From Silanimonas sp. (lineage in GTDB: Bacteria; Pseudomonadota; Gammaproteobacteria; Xanthomonadales; Xanthomonadaceae), in NCBI RefSeq assembly GCF_027530345.1, contig NZ_JAPZQK010000018.1, forward strand, positions 186,001-250,000: a stretch of DNA of 64,000 bases, written 5' to 3'. Below are positions 1,848 to 12,876 of this stretch, piece after piece. Position numbers and translations under genes: made by a program. The first letter of the stretch is position 1. Each line of letters starts with the position of its first letter. Below the pieces are notes generated by a model. The model had not been told where the DNA came from, did no database searches, and saw only the letters and a program-made list of their open reading frames with translations.

Positions 1848-1876
1848 TCGTCATGGTCGCGTCACAAAAGTTTTAT
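1848..1876 (+). promoter_or_regulatory. Candidate Pho box upstream of phoB
   Basis: TCGTCAT-ggtc-GCGTCAC-aaaa-GTTTTAT: two GTCA(T/C) half-sites with exact 11-bp period plus a weak third, about 36 bp before the phoB GTG. Confidence 0.55.
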
Positions 1877-1911
1877 CTACTGGCGCCCTGACCCCATGGC
1901 CTGGACATCCC

Positions 1912-2601
1912 GTGCAGAAGCGCATCCTCATCGTCGACGACGAGCCCGCCATCCGTGACATGGTGGCCTTCGCCCTCCGCAAGGGCGAATACGAACCGGT
2001 GCACGCCGGTGACGCCCGCGAGGCGCAGACCGCCATCGTCGAGCGCGTGCCCGACCTGATCCTGCTGGACTGGATGCTGCCGGGCACCTCGGGACTCGAC
2101 CTCGCCCGCCGCTGGCGCAAGGACGAGCTCACCCGCGACGTGCCGATCATCATGCTCACCGCCCGCGGCGAAGAGAACGACCGCGTCTCCGGCCTCGAGT
2201 CGGGTGTCGACGACTACGTGGTGAAGCCCTTCTCGGCCCGCGAACTCCTGGCTCGCATCAAGGCCGTGATGCGCCGTTCGCGCGAGGACGAGGCCGACGG
2301 CAGCGTGCAGATCGGCCGCCTGCGCATCGACGGCGCGGCGCACCGCGTCTACGCCGGCGACGAATCCATCCACGTTGGCCCGACGGAATACCGGCTTCTG
2401 CACTTCTTCATGACCCACGCCGACCGCGTGTACACCCGTGCGCAGCTCCTGGACCATGTGTGGGGCGGGAACGTGTACGTCGAAGAGCGCACCGTGGACG
2501 TGCACATCCGCCGGCTCCGCAAGGCGCTGGAGCCGAACCAGCTGGACGGCATGGTCCAGACCGTCCGTGGCAGCGGCTACCGGTTCTCGGAAACGACGTG
2601 A
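1912..2601 (+). CDS. phoB: Phosphate regulon response regulator PhoB (GTG start)
   Basis: 229 aa; REC (LIVDDE, LLDWMLPG, K in VVKPF) plus winged-helix C-terminus; followed by phoR. Confidence 0.9.
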   Translation: MQKRILIVDDEPAIRDMVAFALRKGEYEPVHAGDAREAQTAIVERVPDLILLDWMLPGTSGLDLARRWRKDELTRDVPIIMLTARGEENDRVSGLESGVDDYVVKPFSARELLARIKAVMRRSREDEADGSVQIGRLRIDGAAHRVYAGDESIHVGPTEYRLLHFFMTHADRVYTRAQLLDHVWGGNVYVEERTVDVHIRRLRKALEPNQLDGMVQTVRGSGYRFSETT

Positions 2602-2617
2602 CGGACGCGCGCGCAGC

Positions 2618-3946
2618 ATGACCATCGGGGCCCTGCTGCGCCGCGCTTGGCGCGCGTCGGTCGCCCGCCTCGTAGCGATCGTCGCGGCCGCGGCCCTGCT
2701 GGGCTGGTGGCTGGACGCCTTCTGGCCCCCGGTCGCGCTGTCCGCCTTCGCCATCCTCGGCTGGCATTACTGGCGCCTGCACCGCCTGCTCGCCCGCCTC
2801 TACCAACGCCGCCGCCTGCGCGACATCGACGGCCGCGGCCTCTGGGACGACCTCGAAATGCTCCTCCACCGCCGCCAGAACGAAGGCCGCGCCCGCACCA
2901 AGCGACTGCTGGGGCTGGTGCGCGGCTACCGGCGCGCCGCCACGCTCATGCCCGATGCGGTGCTGCTCGTCGACCGCGACAGCGGCCGCATCGACTGGTG
3001 CAACCGGCAGGCTCGGGAGCTTCTGGGCCTCGGCCCGCAGGGCAGCGAGGGCACCGTGGGCGCAGTGTTCCCCGATGCGACCGTGCGGGCATGGCTTGAT
3101 GTCGGGCAGACCGATGAGCCTTTGCTCGACCAGGCCTCGCCGCTCGACGCCAACGTGCGGCTGAGCCTGCGCCTGCTGCCCTACTCCCCCTCGCAGTGGC
3201 TGCTGGTGGTGCGTGATGTCACCAAGCTGCTGCGGCTGGAGCAGTTGCGCCGCGACTTCGTCGCCAACGTCTCGCACGAGTTGCGCACGCCGCTGACGGT
3301 GGTGCACGGCTACCTCGACATCCTCGACGCCGACGACTACCCCGAGCTGGGCCCGATGCTCGACGAGATGCGCAAGCAGTCCGCGCGCATGTCGCAGCTG
3401 GTCGAAGACCTCCTGACGCTCTCGAGGCTGGAGGCCCAGGAGGCCCTGGCCCACCGCGAGGTGGTCGCCATGGCGCCGCTGCTGCTGACACTGAAGCGCG
3501 AAGCCCAGGCGATCTCCGCGGGCCGGCACCACATCCACGTCGAGGACAGCGCGAACGTCGACCTGCTCGGATCGACGCGCGAGCTGCACAGCGCCTTTTC
3601 GAACCTCGTGTCGAACGCCGTCCGCTACACCCCGGTCGACGGCCGCATCGACGTCCGCTTCGAACGCAGTGCCGACGGCGGCGTCATGTTGGCCGTGCAG
3701 GACAGCGGCTACGGCATCCCCGCGCAGCACCTGCCGCGCCTGACCGAACGCTTCTACCGCGTTTCCACCAGCCGGGCGCGCGAAACCGGCGGCACCGGCC
3801 TCGGCCTGTCCATCGTCAAGCACGTGCTGAACCTGCACCAGGGGCGGCTCGACATCCGCAGCGAGGTCGGTAAAGGCAGCGTCTTCGCCTGCGTGTTCGG
3901 GCCGGAAGCCGTGGTCGAGCGCGCGCGCGGCACCGACGAGGCCTGA
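2618..3946 (+). CDS. phoR: Phosphate regulon sensor histidine kinase PhoR
   Basis: 442 aa from the ATG at 2618; TM N-terminus, PAS-like region, HELRTPLTVVHGYLD H-box, GTGLGLSIVKHV G-box. Confidence 0.88.
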   Translation: MTIGALLRRAWRASVARLVAIVAAAALLGWWLDAFWPPVALSAFAILGWHYWRLHRLLARLYQRRRLRDIDGRGLWDDLEMLLHRRQNEGRARTKRLLGLVRGYRRAATLMPDAVLLVDRDSGRIDWCNRQARELLGLGPQGSEGTVGAVFPDATVRAWLDVGQTDEPLLDQASPLDANVRLSLRLLPYSPSQWLLVVRDVTKLLRLEQLRRDFVANVSHELRTPLTVVHGYLDILDADDYPELGPMLDEMRKQSARMSQLVEDLLTLSRLEAQEALAHREVVAMAPLLLTLKREAQAISAGRHHIHVEDSANVDLLGSTRELHSAFSNLVSNAVRYTPVDGRIDVRFERSADGGVMLAVQDSGYGIPAQHLPRLTERFYRVSTSRARETGGTGLGLSIVKHVLNLHQGRLDIRSEVGKGSVFACVFGPEAVVERARGTDEA

Positions 3947-4023: not shown

Positions 4024-6132
<2,109 letters not shown>

Positions 6133-6133
6133 C

Positions 6134-7654
6134 ATGCCGAACAGCTCGCGCCGCAGCCTGCAGGACGGCGACCTCCTCGCAGCGGTCGACCTCGGCTCCA
6201 ACAGCTTCCACCTCGTCGTCGCCCGCTACACGCTGGGCCAACTGCGCATCGTCGACCGCATCAAGGAGACGGTGCGCCTCGCGGAAGGCCTCGACGTCAA
6301 CGGCGGCCTGCGTCCGGACGTCGTGGCCCGCGCGTTGGATTGCCTCGCCCGCTTCGGCCAGAAGCTGCGCAGCGTGCCGCCGGCGCAGGTGCGCGCCATC
6401 GCCACCAACACCGTGCGGCAGATGCGCAATCCGCAGAGCTTCCTGCTGCCGGCCGAAACCGCGCTCGGGCACGGCATCGAAGTGGTGGCCGGCCGCGAGG
6501 AAGCACGCCTCGTCTACCTCGGCGTGGCGCACGGCCACCCGCCGGGCAAGTCGCGACGCCTCGTCATCGACATCGGCGGCGGCTCCACCGAGTTCATCAT
6601 CGGCGACGGCATGGCCCCGATCGAGCGCGAAAGCCTGCAGATGGGCTGCGTGGCCACCACCAAGCGCTTCTTCGCCAACGGCAAGCTGAGCCGCAAGCGT
6701 TGGAAGGACGCCCAGATCGAAATGGCCGCGGAGTTCCAGCAGTTCGCGGCGCTGTATCGCCAATTGGGCTGGAAGGAAACGTTCGGCTCGTCGGGCACGA
6801 TCAAGGCCATCGGCGAGATCTGCGAAGCGCTCAAGCTCTCGAAGGGTGGCCTGATCACCGACACCGCGCTGGCCGGCCTGACCGACCGCGTGCTCGCCTT
6901 CGACACCCTCGAAACCCTGAAGCTTCCCGGCCTCAGCGCGGAGCGCCAGCCGGTGATCGCGGGTGGCGTGCTGGTGTTGGCCACCGCCTTCGAAGCGCTC
7001 GACATCCGCAAGCTGCACGTCAGCGAAGCGGCGATGCGCGAAGGCGTGCTGCACGACATGGTCGGCCGTGGCGGAAAGGCCGACCCGCGCGAAGAGTCGG
7101 TCGCGGCACTGATGACCCGCTACGCGATCGATACCGCGCAGGCGGAACGCGTGGAAGCGACGGCGCTGGCGCTGTTCGACGAGGTCGAGATGGACTGGGG
7201 CCTCGAGGCGCCGGACCGCCAGATGCTGGCCTGGGCCGCGCGCCTGCATGAGCTCGGCCTCGCCATCGCGCACAGCCAGTACCACGTGCACGGCGCCTAC
7301 ATCCTCGAGAACTCCGACATCGCCGGTTTCTCGCGTACCGAGCAGCAATTCCTGGCCACGCTGGTGCGCAACCAGCGCCGCGCCCTGCGGCTCACCAGTT
7401 TCGAGGGCTTGCCCGACCGCTTGGCACCGGCGGCCCAGCGCTGCGCGATGCTGCTGCGGCTCGCGGTGCTGCTGCACCGCGCCCACGAGGCCGGGAAGAT
7501 CCCCGGCCTGCGCCTGCGGGTGGGCAGCGGCGAACTGCAGTTGAAGCTCTCGAAGCGCTGGCTCGACGCCCATCCGTTGACGCGCGCCGACCTCGACACC
7601 GAGCGCGAGCACCTGCGCGACATCGGCCTGCGTCTTGAGCTGGACGGCGGCTGA
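6134..7654 (+). CDS. ppx: Exopolyphosphatase / guanosine pentaphosphate phosphohydrolase
   Basis: Start MPNSSRRSLQDGDLLAAVDLGSNSFHLVVAR; DIGGGSTEF; begins 1 nt after the ppk1 stop. Confidence 0.93.
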   Translation: MPNSSRRSLQDGDLLAAVDLGSNSFHLVVARYTLGQLRIVDRIKETVRLAEGLDVNGGLRPDVVARALDCLARFGQKLRSVPPAQVRAIATNTVRQMRNPQSFLLPAETALGHGIEVVAGREEARLVYLGVAHGHPPGKSRRLVIDIGGGSTEFIIGDGMAPIERESLQMGCVATTKRFFANGKLSRKRWKDAQIEMAAEFQQFAALYRQLGWKETFGSSGTIKAIGEICEALKLSKGGLITDTALAGLTDRVLAFDTLETLKLPGLSAERQPVIAGGVLVLATAFEALDIRKLHVSEAAMREGVLHDMVGRGGKADPREESVAALMTRYAIDTAQAERVEATALALFDEVEMDWGLEAPDRQMLAWAARLHELGLAIAHSQYHVHGAYILENSDIAGFSRTEQQFLATLVRNQRRALRLTSFEGLPDRLAPAAQRCAMLLRLAVLLHRAHEAGKIPGLRLRVGSGELQLKLSKRWLDAHPLTRADLDTEREHLRDIGLRLELDGG

Positions 7655-7660
7655 GCCTCC

Positions 7661-8773
7661 TCAGCGAACCCGCAAGGACGAGAGCGGCACGCGCTGGTCG
7701 ATCAGCACCGCACCGTCGGCATCCCGAAGGCCCAGTCGCAGTTCGCGGCGGGCCCATTCGATCTCCACGAGGCCGAAGTTCGCCCGGTGGTAGGCCTCGC
7801 CGACGCGGAGCGCGTTGGGCACCGGCACGTGCCATTCCTCGGTGAGCCCGCTCGAGGTCAGGTCGACCATCGGGTAAGGCACGTTCGCATCGAGGCGCGT
7901 GAGTTCGCCGTAGTGCGTGTCCCCTGAGAGGAACACCACGCCCTCGGCACGGGTGTCGCGAATGAGCTGGAACAGCCGCGCCTGGTCGCGCGGGTAGTTC
8001 ACCCACGCCTCCCAGCCCGGGAAGTCCGCCAGCACCTGAAGGCTGGAGCCGATCAGTCGGACCTCAGCCGGCTCGCGAAGCTGGCGCTCCAGCCACGCCC
8101 ACTGCGCCTCGCCGAGCATGGTCGCTTCCGGCGACGGGTCGCGTGCGTAAGGCCCCGGTACCGGACGCCCTGCCCTCGCCTCGCGCCGGCCCCAGCGTTC
8201 GTGCGCTCCGTCGTCCGGGAACGCCGTGTTGCGTGCGATCGGCGTGCGGTTCCAGCGCAGGTCGAGCAGGATCACCTGCACGCGCTGCCCCGGTGGGCCG
8301 AACATCGCACTGGTGTACACGCCCTCGTGCGTTCGACGGGGTGAATCGGCCGGTTCGCCCCAGAAGTCGAAGAAGACCTCGCGCGAGGCGTCCTTCATCG
8401 GGTACTCGGCCCCCGCGTCGTTCTCGCCGTAGTCGTGGTCGTCCCACGTCGCCATCAACGGCGTCGACGCGCGCAGGCGCTGGAAGCCCGGCTGCGCGGC
8501 CAGCGCCGCGTAAGCCTGCTCGAGTTCGCCACGATCCCGCGTGTCGCCGTAGACGTTGTCGCCGAGGAACAGGAAGAGGTCGGGGTCGGCGGCCTGCACC
8601 GCCGTCCAGATCGGCTGCGGTTTGTGCTGCTCGGCGCAGGAACCAAAGGCGATGCGGGTCAGGGCGGGCGCGCTGGCGCTGCCTGCCTCCGGGGCCGCGA
8701 GGGCCACCGGAGGAAGGCAGAGCGCGAGCGCCAAGCCGAGGTGGCGCAGGGCCACCGACGGCAGGCGCCGCAT
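7661..8773 (-). CDS. PhoD-like alkaline phosphatase / metallophosphatase
   Basis: 370 aa, signal peptide, RIAFGSC, FLGDNVYGD, TWDDHDYGEND, LSGDTHYGE motifs of the PhoD-like family. Confidence 0.85.
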   Translation of the reverse strand: MRRLPSVALRHLGLALALCLPPVALAAPEAGSASAPALTRIAFGSCAEQHKPQPIWTAVQAADPDLFLFLGDNVYGDTRDRGELEQAYAALAAQPGFQRLRASTPLMATWDDHDYGENDAGAEYPMKDASREVFFDFWGEPADSPRRTHEGVYTSAMFGPPGQRVQVILLDLRWNRTPIARNTAFPDDGAHERWGRREARAGRPVPGPYARDPSPEATMLGEAQWAWLERQLREPAEVRLIGSSLQVLADFPGWEAWVNYPRDQARLFQLIRDTRAEGVVFLSGDTHYGELTRLDANVPYPMVDLTSSGLTEEWHVPVPNALRVGEAYHRANFGLVEIEWARRELRLGLRDADGAVLIDQRVPLSSLRVR

Positions 8774-11007
8774 CAGAACGAGGCCTCGAGCGTCAGGAAC
8801 ACCTGGCGCGGCGCGCCGGTGACCAGCGTGTAGTTCAGGCCCTGCGGGTCACGAGCGACGAAACCGTTGGTGCCGACGCTGGCGAAGTAGTCCTCGTCGA
8901 ACAGGTTGGTGACGTTGAGCGTGGCCTTCAGGTCCTTGGCGAGGCCGAGGTCGCCGAAGCGGTACGACACCGACGCGTCGGTGACCCAGTAGTCCGGCAC
9001 GCGCGAGTCATTGACGAAGGTGATGAAGCGCTCGTCGGTGTACTTCATGCCGATGCGGGCCTCGACGGCGTCCGCGGCGTAGCGCAGTTCGACGTTGGCG
9101 AGCATCTCCGGCGTGTCGACCACGGTCTTGCCGTCGGTCGGCACCAGGGTCGTGCCGTCGAGGTAGTTCGAGGCGTACTCCGACGAATTCCACGACAGCG
9201 AACCAAACAGCGAGAAGCCACCGCCGAGGCGCCAGTCCATCGCCGCCTCGGCGCCCGAGGTCTCGACGTCGCCGACGTTGGCCAGCACGCTTGGGCAACC
9301 GACGATGCCGGCGCATTGCGAGATGGTCAGCAGGCGGTCTTCGAAGTCCACGCGATACAGCGTGAGCGAGCTCTGGAAGCCCTCATTGCCGTAGCGCAGG
9401 CCGCCTTCGAACGTGGTCGAGGTCTCCGGGCGCAGCGTGCCGCGGATGGCGTTGAAGCCCGTCTGGCTGGCCGAGAACGGACCATTCACGCCAGCGCGGA
9501 AGGCCGCCATGTTCTCCGCGTACGAGCCGAACAGCTCGAAGCCCGGCGCCACTTCGAAACGCAGGCCCAGCTGCGGCAGGAAGCTGTCCTTGGCTTCGAT
9601 GCGACCCTGCGCGCGCGTGCCGCGACGGCTCACGGCTTCGATCTCGGCGTCCAGCGCCTTGAAGCCGGCGTCGATCGTAAAGCGGCCATCCATCAGCGCG
9701 ATGCGGTCGTTGAGGTACCAGACCTGCGTGCGGCTGTCGAAATCCTGCTCGAACACCCGCACGTCCGGGCTGCGGTAGAAGTAGCCGCGGTTCGGCGGGG
9801 TGTCGGCGTTGAGGAAGTAGAAGTTGCGCTGCAGGTTGTGGTCGCTGTCCTCGTGCCACAGGCCGAAGCTCAGCGTGTGCACGCCGAACGGCAGCTCGAA
9901 GCCGGCCGTGAGGCCGCCGCGATCGATGGTGTACTCGGTGGTGCGAAGGCTCAGCGGCAGGGTGGACGAGCTCGGCGAGTACGGGGTCACCCAGTGGCCC
10001 TGGCCTTCGTTCGTGTGGCGATAGACCTGCGCCTTGAAGCTGCCGCCGTCGCCGATGGCGATGTCGGTGTTCAGCGCATAGAGGTTGTCGTCGCGGAGGC
10101 CACGGCCCAGGTAGTAGGCGTCGTCCAGGCTGTTCACACCGCCCGAGAACTGGCCGAAGCCGGCGCGGATGGCGCGCGTCCAGTCACGCGCGTAGTTGTC
10201 CCAATCCATGCCGAGGCGGCGCGCCGACTCCAGCGACAGATCCGCGTAGTCGGTCTCGTTGCGACGCGAGGTGTTGATGAGCGCGCCGAGGCTCCAGGCC
10301 TCGTCGGCGTAGCGGGCCTGCGCGTTGACCTGGCGCGAATCCTGCGCGCCGTAGCCCTTCCATTTCTCGGCATCGTGCTTGGCGCCCGAGAGGAAGGCCG
10401 AGAAGCCGTCGAGGTCACCGGTGTCGTAGCGCGCGAAGGTGCGCAGCGTGTCGTCGCTGCCGACGGTCTGCGCGAGCGTCGCACCGCGCTCGGCCTGCGG
10501 ACCACGCGACGCGAAGCGCACCGTGCCGCCGAGGTTCGACGAGGACGCGGTGTCGAGCGCGCCGCTGCCCTGCGAGACTTCGGCGAAACCGAGGTTCTCG
10601 GCGATCAGCGCGCGGCTGATGTGCAGACCGTTGTGGTTGCCGTAGCTCATGTCGCCGAGCGGGATGCCATCCAACGTGAAGCCCAGCTGGTTCTGGTTGA
10701 AGCCGCGGATGTTCAGGCGCGTCGACCACTCGTAGTTGCCCCACGGGTCAGCCGAGGTGAAGTGCACGCCGGGAAGCTTGCCGAGCAGCTTGAGCGCGCT
10801 GCTGCCGGCGGGCTGGCGGGCGATTTCCTCGCGACCCAGCGCCTGCACCTGGCGGGTTTCGCCGGTGCCGACCACGTTCACTGCGTCGAGGACGGCGGCG
10901 TCATCGCGCACCTCGGGATTGGCGGAAGCGGCCATCGGGGCGAGCGCAGCGGCGACCGCGAGCGCGAGCAGGTGGCGAGGGCGACGGCAGGGGGTGATCG
11001 ACGACAT
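8773..11007 (-). CDS. TonB-dependent receptor
   Basis: Signal peptide MSSITPCRRPRHLLALAVAAALAPMAASA, plug domain, beta-barrel and C-terminal ...FLTLEASF; start trimmed from the ORF-track 11058; overlaps the PhoD-like ORF start/stop at 8773. Confidence 0.88.
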   Translation of the reverse strand: MSSITPCRRPRHLLALAVAAALAPMAASANPEVRDDAAVLDAVNVVGTGETRQVQALGREEIARQPAGSSALKLLGKLPGVHFTSADPWGNYEWSTRLNIRGFNQNQLGFTLDGIPLGDMSYGNHNGLHISRALIAENLGFAEVSQGSGALDTASSSNLGGTVRFASRGPQAERGATLAQTVGSDDTLRTFARYDTGDLDGFSAFLSGAKHDAEKWKGYGAQDSRQVNAQARYADEAWSLGALINTSRRNETDYADLSLESARRLGMDWDNYARDWTRAIRAGFGQFSGGVNSLDDAYYLGRGLRDDNLYALNTDIAIGDGGSFKAQVYRHTNEGQGHWVTPYSPSSSTLPLSLRTTEYTIDRGGLTAGFELPFGVHTLSFGLWHEDSDHNLQRNFYFLNADTPPNRGYFYRSPDVRVFEQDFDSRTQVWYLNDRIALMDGRFTIDAGFKALDAEIEAVSRRGTRAQGRIEAKDSFLPQLGLRFEVAPGFELFGSYAENMAAFRAGVNGPFSASQTGFNAIRGTLRPETSTTFEGGLRYGNEGFQSSLTLYRVDFEDRLLTISQCAGIVGCPSVLANVGDVETSGAEAAMDWRLGGGFSLFGSLSWNSSEYASNYLDGTTLVPTDGKTVVDTPEMLANVELRYAADAVEARIGMKYTDERFITFVNDSRVPDYWVTDASVSYRFGDLGLAKDLKATLNVTNLFDEDYFASVGTNGFVARDPQGLNYTLVTGAPRQVFLTLEASF

Positions 11008-11070
11008 CTGGAACTCCATTGGGGGCCAACCTCCGATCGGAGCAGTGGGCGCGCACACTGGCGGAAAAGC

Positions 11071-11099
11071 GTGACCGCATCGTTGAATTCACGTGACAC
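11071..11099 (-). promoter_or_regulatory. Weak candidate Pho box facing the TonB receptor
   Basis: Minus strand GTGTCAC at 11099-11093 and CGGTCAC at 11077-11071, spaced 22 bp (2 x 11); the middle half-site is poor. Confidence 0.3.
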
Positions 11100-11114
11100 C
11101 CGATTGCCGGTGCC

Positions 11115-11143
11115 GCGTCACGCCAGCGTCATCGCGATGTCAC
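11115..11143 (+). promoter_or_regulatory. Candidate triple Pho box facing the glycosyltransferase
   Basis: GCGTCAC-gcca-GCGTCAT-cgcg-ATGTCAC: three GTCA cores at exact 11-bp spacing, 34 bp upstream of the ATG at 11177. Confidence 0.55.
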
Positions 11144-11176
11144 CGCCGTGCCGCGCATCGCCTTCAGGCTCGCGGC

Positions 11177-12334
11177 ATGGACACGACTGCCGCCCCCGCC
11201 CGCCGCTTCGAACTCGTCACCGAGACCTACCCGCCGGAGATCAACGGCGTGGCGCTCACCGTGCAGGCCCTGCACGATGGGCTGAAGGCGCTCGGGCACG
11301 ACGTGGGCCTCGTGCGCCCCGCCCGCCCGGGCGAGCTCTGCGATGGCTCCCCTGAATTGCTCCGCGTGGACGGCGCACCGATCCCGCGCTATCCCGGCAT
11401 GCGCTTCGGCCTGCCGGCCGGCCGGAAGCTGGCGGCGCGCTGGATGCGCCAACGGCCGGACGCGATCTACATCGCCACCGAAGGGCCGTTGGGCTGGTCG
11501 GCGTTGCGCGCGGCGAAGCGGCTGCGCATCCCCGTGGCCACCGGCTTCCACACGCGCTTCGACGACTACGTGGGCCGCTACGGCGCCGGATTCCTCGCGC
11601 CTTGGGTGTTCGCTTGGCTGCGCCGCTTCCACAACCGCGCCGACGCCACCCTCGTGCCGACGGGCGAGCTGGTGGAACAGCTGACGGCGCAGGGTTTCCG
11701 CCACGCCCGCCGCCTCGGCCGGGCGGTGGATACCGTGCGATTCCACCCGGCCTTCCGCGCCGACGCGCTCCGCGAACAGTGGGGCGTCGGCCCGGATGAC
11801 CTCGCCATCGTGCACGTCGGCCGTCTCGCGCCGGAGAAGAACCTGCCGCTGCTGATGCGCTGCTACGAGGCCCTCAAGGTCGAGAAGCCAACGACAAAGC
11901 TCGTGCTGGTCGGCGACGGTCCGGAACGGCCGGCGCTCGCCGCACAGCATCCCGAGGTGATCTTCGCCGGCACCTTGCGCGGCGACGCCTTGGCCGCGCA
12001 CTTCGCCTCCGCCGACCTGTTCTGCTTCCCGAGCCTCTCGGAAACCTTCGGCAACGTCACGATTGAAGCCATGGCCTCGGGCCTGCCGACGGTCGCGTTC
12101 GATTACGGTGCAGCGCGCGAGCACCTCCGCAACGGTGTGCACGGCGCGGCGCTTGCCTTCGGTGACGAGACGGCCTTCCTCGCGCGCTTCCTCGATGTCG
12201 CCCTCTCCCCGCAGCGGATCGGGATGGGCCAAGCCGCCCGCGAGGCCGTCGAGGGCCTGTCGCCGGACCGCGTCTCGCGCGACTTCGCCGATCTGCTCAT
12301 CCAACTCGCCAACCCACTCGAGAGGGCTGCCTGA
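11177..12334 (+). CDS. GT4-type glycosyltransferase (MgtA/SqdX-like fold family)
   Basis: 385 aa MDTTAAPARRFELVTETYPPEINGVALTVQALHDGLKALGHDV; GRLAPEKNLPLL; ETFGNVTIE EX7E motif. Confidence 0.85.
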   Translation: MDTTAAPARRFELVTETYPPEINGVALTVQALHDGLKALGHDVGLVRPARPGELCDGSPELLRVDGAPIPRYPGMRFGLPAGRKLAARWMRQRPDAIYIATEGPLGWSALRAAKRLRIPVATGFHTRFDDYVGRYGAGFLAPWVFAWLRRFHNRADATLVPTGELVEQLTAQGFRHARRLGRAVDTVRFHPAFRADALREQWGVGPDDLAIVHVGRLAPEKNLPLLMRCYEALKVEKPTTKLVLVGDGPERPALAAQHPEVIFAGTLRGDALAAHFASADLFCFPSLSETFGNVTIEAMASGLPTVAFDYGAAREHLRNGVHGAALAFGDETAFLARFLDVALSPQRIGMGQAAREAVEGLSPDRVSRDFADLLIQLANPLERAA

Positions 12335-12876
12335 TGATGACGCGCTCCGCCCTGGTCCAACGCGAACACCACTGGTGCCTGCAGTTGAATGGCTGGTGCA
12401 CGTACCGCGCCGTGCGCCTCTACTTCAAGGCCGTCAGCCGCTTGGGCGACGGCGTGTTCTGGTACGCGATGATGGCGGTGCTGGCGGTCTTCGGCGGCGA
12501 GGAAGGCCTGCACGCCGCCGCGCACATGGCCGTGGTCGGCGGCATCGCGGCCATCCTCTATCGGCGCATGAAGGGCTTCTTCCGTCGCGCCCGCCCCTGC
12601 CACCGCGACCCGGCGGTGCGGGCCTGGGTGGCGCCGCTGGACGAATTCAGTTTCCCGTCGGGGCACACGCTGCATGCCGTCAGCTTCACGCTCGTCGCGC
12701 TGGCCCACTATCCTGGCTTCGCCGTTTGGCTGATTCCGTTCACCGCCAGCATCGCGGTGTCGCGCGTGTTCCTCGGCGTGCATTACCCGAGCGATGTGCT
12801 CGCCGCCACCAGCATCGGCGCCACCCTCGCCGGGATCGCGCTGTGGGTGGTGCCGGGCGTCAGCTTGCTCGGCTGA
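12334..12876 (+). CDS. PAP2-family membrane phosphatase
   Basis: 180 aa; KGFFRRARP, PSGH and SRVFLGVHYPSD = complete PAP2 tripartite motif; ATGA overlap with the glycosyltransferase. Confidence 0.87.
   Translation: MMTRSALVQREHHWCLQLNGWCTYRAVRLYFKAVSRLGDGVFWYAMMAVLAVFGGEEGLHAAAHMAVVGGIAAILYRRMKGFFRRARPCHRDPAVRAWVAPLDEFSFPSGHTLHAVSFTLVALAHYPGFAVWLIPFTASIAVSRVFLGVHYPSDVLAATSIGATLAGIALWVVPGVSLLG

Follow-up and report, generated by a model that had tools for sequence, protein, structure and literature searches.

Two predicted divergent PhoB promoters between a TonB receptor/PhoD-like phosphatase pair and a conserved glycosyltransferase/PAP2 pair in Silanimonas

The DNA analyzed here, a 64,000-nucleotide stretch of a Silanimonas sp. 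contig (the window), encodes phoB, phoR, ppk and ppx on the plus strand, then a PhoD-like phosphatase and a TonB receptor on the minus strand, and then a glycosyltransferase and a PAP2-family phosphatase on the plus strand. The response regulator gene phoB (1912–2601) matches TIGR02154 at 370 bits, over the cut-off, and the DNA-binding domain of its product aligns closely and without gaps to E. coli PhoB structures. The sensor kinase gene phoR (2570–3946, start approximate) was assigned from TIGR02966, also over the cut-off, and from Pfam. Both partners that a Pho promoter calls for, the cognate PhoB and PhoR, are thus encoded in the genome. The polyphosphate kinase gene ppk1 (4024–6132) matches TIGR03705 over the cut-off, and the ppx-type exopolyphosphatase (6134–7654, start approximate) was named by its sequence and its position after ppk. 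On the minus strand, the start of the PhoD-like phosphatase gene (7661–8773; Pfam PF09423, 79.7 bits) overlaps the end of the TonB-dependent receptor gene (8773–11019; profile matches). The GT4-family glycosyltransferase gene begins with the ATG at 11177 and runs to 12334 on the plus strand; it was assigned from NCBIfam and Pfam, and its nearest NCBIfam models are lipid glycosyltransferases, matched below cut-off. Its stop overlaps the start of the PAP2 gene (12334–12876) by a single base.

The region between the receptor and the glycosyltransferase contains GCGTCACGCCAGCGTCATCGCGATGTCAC on the plus strand at 11115–11143, with three strong half-sites (GCGTCAC, GCGTCAT and ATGTCAC) in 11-bp phase and GTCA cores starting at 11117, 11128 and 11139. 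A Pho box is built from two or more direct repeats of 11 nt that share a conserved 7-nt core (PMC4415409), and a full PhoB site comprises two TGTCA half-sites with 6-bp spacing (PMC6194859). The plus strand carries three strong repeats of this predicted PhoB type, and the minus strand carries a three-repeat site with a weak middle. A sequence-only reading had reported both, the plus-strand triple with its 11-bp spacing and, at 11071–11099, minus-strand GTGTCAC and CGGTCAC flanking a poor middle half-site, and both are present exactly as described. The plus-strand triple is the sole GTCA triple in the window. The 3.37-Mb genome has one other, and the reversed control pattern is absent from it. 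This second triple (contig C60, 197860) was set aside, since its GTCAA cores do not fit GTCAY. When the window was scanned with a half-site matrix built from sites of other genera, the array at 11115 was the top PhoB-type triple at 27.2 bits, followed by a plus-strand site at 1848, before phoB (17.5 bits), and the receptor-facing site at 11099 on the minus strand (17.0 bits). The highest triple in 150 simulated 64-kb windows scored 21.1 bits and none reached 27.2. Past the third half-site lies a degenerate fourth, GTGCCGC (11148–11154, −3.4 bits), so that the Silanimonas array has half-sites 1–3 strong and the fourth decayed. A predicted −10 element, CAGGCT (11165–11170), follows 10 nt past the fourth half-site. 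Rightward transcription would therefore start at or beside the ATG at 11177, and a leaderless glycosyltransferase message is possible.

To analyze conservation, we examined 200 bp upstream of the glycosyltransferase in 80 loci that carry it, nearly all from Lysobacterales and not independent lineages. The strict pattern GTCA-N7-GTCA occurs in 63 of the 80, and in 42 of 54 once near-identical upstream regions are removed. Every other GTCA spacing from 0 to 20 was found in at most 4 of 80, except N18, which is twice the step and occurs in 10; nothing comparable to the N7 signal was seen in the same 80 regions on the opposite strand or with the motif reversed. Score alignment placed four half-sites in 11-bp phase upstream of the gene in every relative, usually two strong GTCAY followed by two weaker ones (GCCAY, then GCAAC or TTCAY). 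A four-half-site score of at least 18.66 was reached in 80/80 relatives, 1/8000 control segments from the same loci and 0/80 reverse strands, although the matrix derives from Lysobacterales relatives and the boxes before their phoB genes, with training sites partly picked for GTCA, so that the scores of training relatives are inflated and partly circular. The window and all Silanimonas-type loci were left out of training and are free of this circularity. The −10 analysis is also less affected, since the hexamer played no part in locating the arrays: 10 nt past the fourth half-site, 77 relatives share [CG]A[AG]G[CA]T, with A at position 2 and T at position 6 in 99% each. This −10 at a fixed 10-nt spacing, with no separate −35, is the arrangement of a Pho promoter. 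The proposal of PhoB control had been staked on conservation of the repeats in relatives, and the N7 pair (63/80) and the four-half-site array (80/80) sustain it. Simulated controls, spacing controls and conservation together rule out a chance origin of the plus-strand array. Separately, two relatives (L055 and L095) have good divergent two-half-site boxes on the reverse strand upstream of the glycosyltransferase, with TAGCTT or TAGCGT 10 nt downstream, which hints at a further divergent gene under PhoB at those loci.

The receptor-facing site reads GTGTCACgtgaATTCAACgatgCGGTCAC on the minus strand from 11099 to 11071, with half-sites GTGTCAC, ATTCAAC and CGGTCAC. Its middle half-site is weak (1.8 bits), and by itself the site is not extreme for a 64-kb stretch; triples of at least 17.04 bits are expected 0.07 times per 64-kb window (150 simulated). 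The outermost half-site, moreover, is not GTCA in two of the relatives bearing the receptor (L018 and L019) and is poor in two others (L020 and L021). The plus-strand array could thus be a real PhoB promoter while the minus-strand site is chance or vestigial and the receptor/PhoD operon is under other control. We consider this improbable in view of what surrounds the promoter-proximal half-site. CGGTCAC (11077–11071) is followed, after exactly 10 nt, by a predicted −10 element, CAGTGT (11060–11055), and in random 110-bp stretches a triple scoring 17.04 bits or more together with the −10 A and T has a frequency of 0.0006. The receptor and PhoD-like genes adjoin the glycosyltransferase in five loci (L017–L021, from Silanimonas and one Lysobacteraceae bin), the glycosyltransferase of one Silanimonas sp. 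(L017) being 95% identical to that of the window. All five keep GTCAY and a CAxxxT hexamer at the 10-nt spacing (CAAGGT, CACCGT, CACCGT, CAGCAT and CAGCAT). When the 80 loci were ranked by their best reverse-strand triple plus −10, the top five were exactly these five. Conservation in relatives therefore covers 80/80 loci on the glycosyltransferase side and 5/5 receptor-bearing loci on the other. Because the outer and middle half-sites vary among the receptor-bearing loci, the receptor-side promoter is probably weaker than the glycosyltransferase-side one. More distant relatives with both gene sets in one locus, such as Arenimonas, run from phoB-phoR-ppk-ppx directly to glycosyltransferase-PAP2, with the receptor match absent.

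Further boxes in the genome bear on the identity of the regulator. The phoB promoter (1848–1881, plus strand) consists of the box TCGTCATggtcGCGTCAC (1848–1865), a 10-nt spacer and the −10 TCTACT (1876–1881), and this geometry recurs ahead of phoB in nearly all relatives whose locus retains the gene. Additionally, oprP-pstS of the same genome has a GAAAT/GTCAT box upstream with TAGGCT 10 nt downstream of it. Searching the genome blind for half-site-N6-GTCAY-N10-xAxxxT returned 8 matches, compared with 1 in the control direction. They include oprP-pstS, the TonB receptor of the window, an Oar-like outer-membrane protein and a gene fusing a PstS-family protein to OmpA; the remaining ones lie within or at the end of coding sequence. 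Head-to-tail repeats are recognized throughout the OmpR family, and in some relatives the opposite strand close by encodes a further PhoB/PhoR-like pair (30–41% identity). A different member of the family that binds GTCA direct repeats might therefore be imagined to use both sites. However, the same box stands before phoB in nearly all relatives with phoB in the locus, and before oprP-pstS and a PstS-like gene, which makes a regulator other than PhoB very unlikely.

Other genomic sites were recorded alongside. The PstS-family periplasmic binding protein-OmpA fusion gene (contig C51, 119453, minus strand) lies about 10 kb from the pst operon, and its Pho-like array is followed by a −10 after 10 nt. 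The Oar-like protein, which has a carboxypeptidase-regulatory domain (contig C32, 64148, minus strand), is preceded by GTCAT-N6-GTCAT with TACGCT 10 nt downstream. Near the pst operon, a minus-strand GTCAT/GACAT/GTCAC triple (L100:5310; C51, near 129309) faces a response-regulator/GGDEF/EAL gene divergent from oprP-pstS; a −10 sought at 10 nt is absent from this site, which therefore possibly serves repression or a different start. A strict search for two GTCAY in the genome (14 places) was discarded as a regulon list, as most of the inspected places fall within coding sequence or abut it.

The PAP2 gene adjoins the glycosyltransferase gene in all 80 relatives. Among 17 further gammaproteobacterial homologues with 42% identity or more, 13 share the arrangement, and several have strong upstream arrays. 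The glycosyltransferase has the group 1/4 domains PF13692, PF13439 and PF00534 expected of an Agt-type enzyme. Against curated lipid-glycosyltransferase models it stays below threshold, the best being NF053787 at 137.7 bits with a cut-off of 480. Its two best matches, a GlcNAc-phosphatidylglycerol synthase model and an alpha-monoglucosyl-diacylglycerol synthase, both below cut-off, use lipid acceptors. P. aeruginosa has Pho-boxed glycosyltransferases of phosphate starvation that produce glucosyl- and glucuronosyl-diacylglycerol (PMC8528852). By analogy, the pair most likely makes phosphorus-free glycolipids, a glycosyl-diacylglycerol formed from PAP2-derived diacylglycerol. PAP2 could also act on another lipid phosphate: its matches include SepP, an undecaprenyl-diphosphatase, and PgpB, with similarly weak scores. 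A PhoB-controlled pair that modifies LPS, an undecaprenyl carrier or some other envelope glycan instead of supplying glycolipid membrane substitutes would fit these PAP2 matches, but it sits poorly with the lipid-acceptor enzymes at the head of the glycosyltransferase matches and with the P. aeruginosa glycosyl-diacylglycerols, and we regard it as rather unlikely. As a tentative extension of the glycolipid reading, the PhoB-controlled pair may represent a phosphorus-sparing lipid pathway of its own in Lysobacterales and some other gammaproteobacteria. Diacylglycerol would then come from PAP2 instead of PlcP, and the pair would be driven from an unusually rigid promoter of four half-sites for two PhoB dimers. 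Literature searches on Lysobacter, phosphate starvation and glycolipid gave no match, and a search of the Xanthomonas phosphate literature did not find a Pho-box study of the glycosyltransferase/PAP2 operon. An LpxH-like metallophosphoesterase gene elsewhere in the genome (contig C55, 63611) follows an acyltransferase-like gene and is a possible PlcP counterpart.

Because of the two arrays with their −10 elements, the boxes before phoB, oprP-pstS and the PstS-OmpA gene, and phoBR-ppk-ppx next door, we are confident in reading the intergenic region as two divergent class-II PhoB-activated promoters, rightward for the lipid pair and leftward for a phosphorus-scavenging pair. Common PhoB control of both operons, as the sequence-only reading had proposed, is what we infer from the conserved arrays, the −10 spacing and the boxes before phoB and oprP-pstS. 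Under phosphate limitation, PhoR would phosphorylate PhoB, and PhoB∼P would occupy the 11-bp-phased half-sites head-to-tail. PhoB promoters lack a −35 and rely on a sigma4 contact instead (PMC4496699). At both predicted promoters PhoB would accordingly recruit sigma70 region 4 to the −10, 10 nt downstream. Rightward, induction of the glycosyltransferase and PAP2 would most likely convert phosphatidic acid to diacylglycerol for glycosylation, sparing membrane phosphorus. Leftward, the TonB receptor and PhoD-like phosphatase would be switched on to scavenge phosphorus, a role that the pair fits.

The mechanism of PhoB is already known, and the new facts, a lipid operon as a member and an order-wide four-half-site architecture, are modest. 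The geometry of site and promoter in Lysobacterales (11-bp half-sites, 10-nt spacer, xAxxxT) is nevertheless usable to predict the phosphate regulons of the order. It points to a conserved candidate operon for membrane lipid replacement in phosphate starvation. It also draws attention to a second operon, encoding a TonB receptor and a phosphatase, which Silanimonas and a handful of near relatives carry between the ppx and glycosyltransferase genes.

Compared with the class-II PhoB promoters of E. coli (pstS, phoA, phoB and ugpB), the predicted promoters share 11-bp head-to-tail GTCA half-sites, the lack of a −35, a −10 at fixed spacing past the last half-site and the presence of PhoB/PhoR genes. 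They differ in that the Silanimonas sites have GC-rich linkers, keeping the GTCAY core with G/C flanks, and in having, for one operon, four half-sites in phase as the rule across the order; the window has three strong ones and a degenerate fourth. The PlcP-Agt genes of P. aeruginosa (PA3219-PA3218 and PA0842; PMC8528852) are likewise Pho-boxed glycosyltransferase genes with a predicted diacylglycerol acceptor and a link to phosphate limitation. In contrast to that system, the partner in Silanimonas is a PAP2 phosphatase and not PlcP, while the LpxH-like metallophosphoesterase is encoded elsewhere in the genome.
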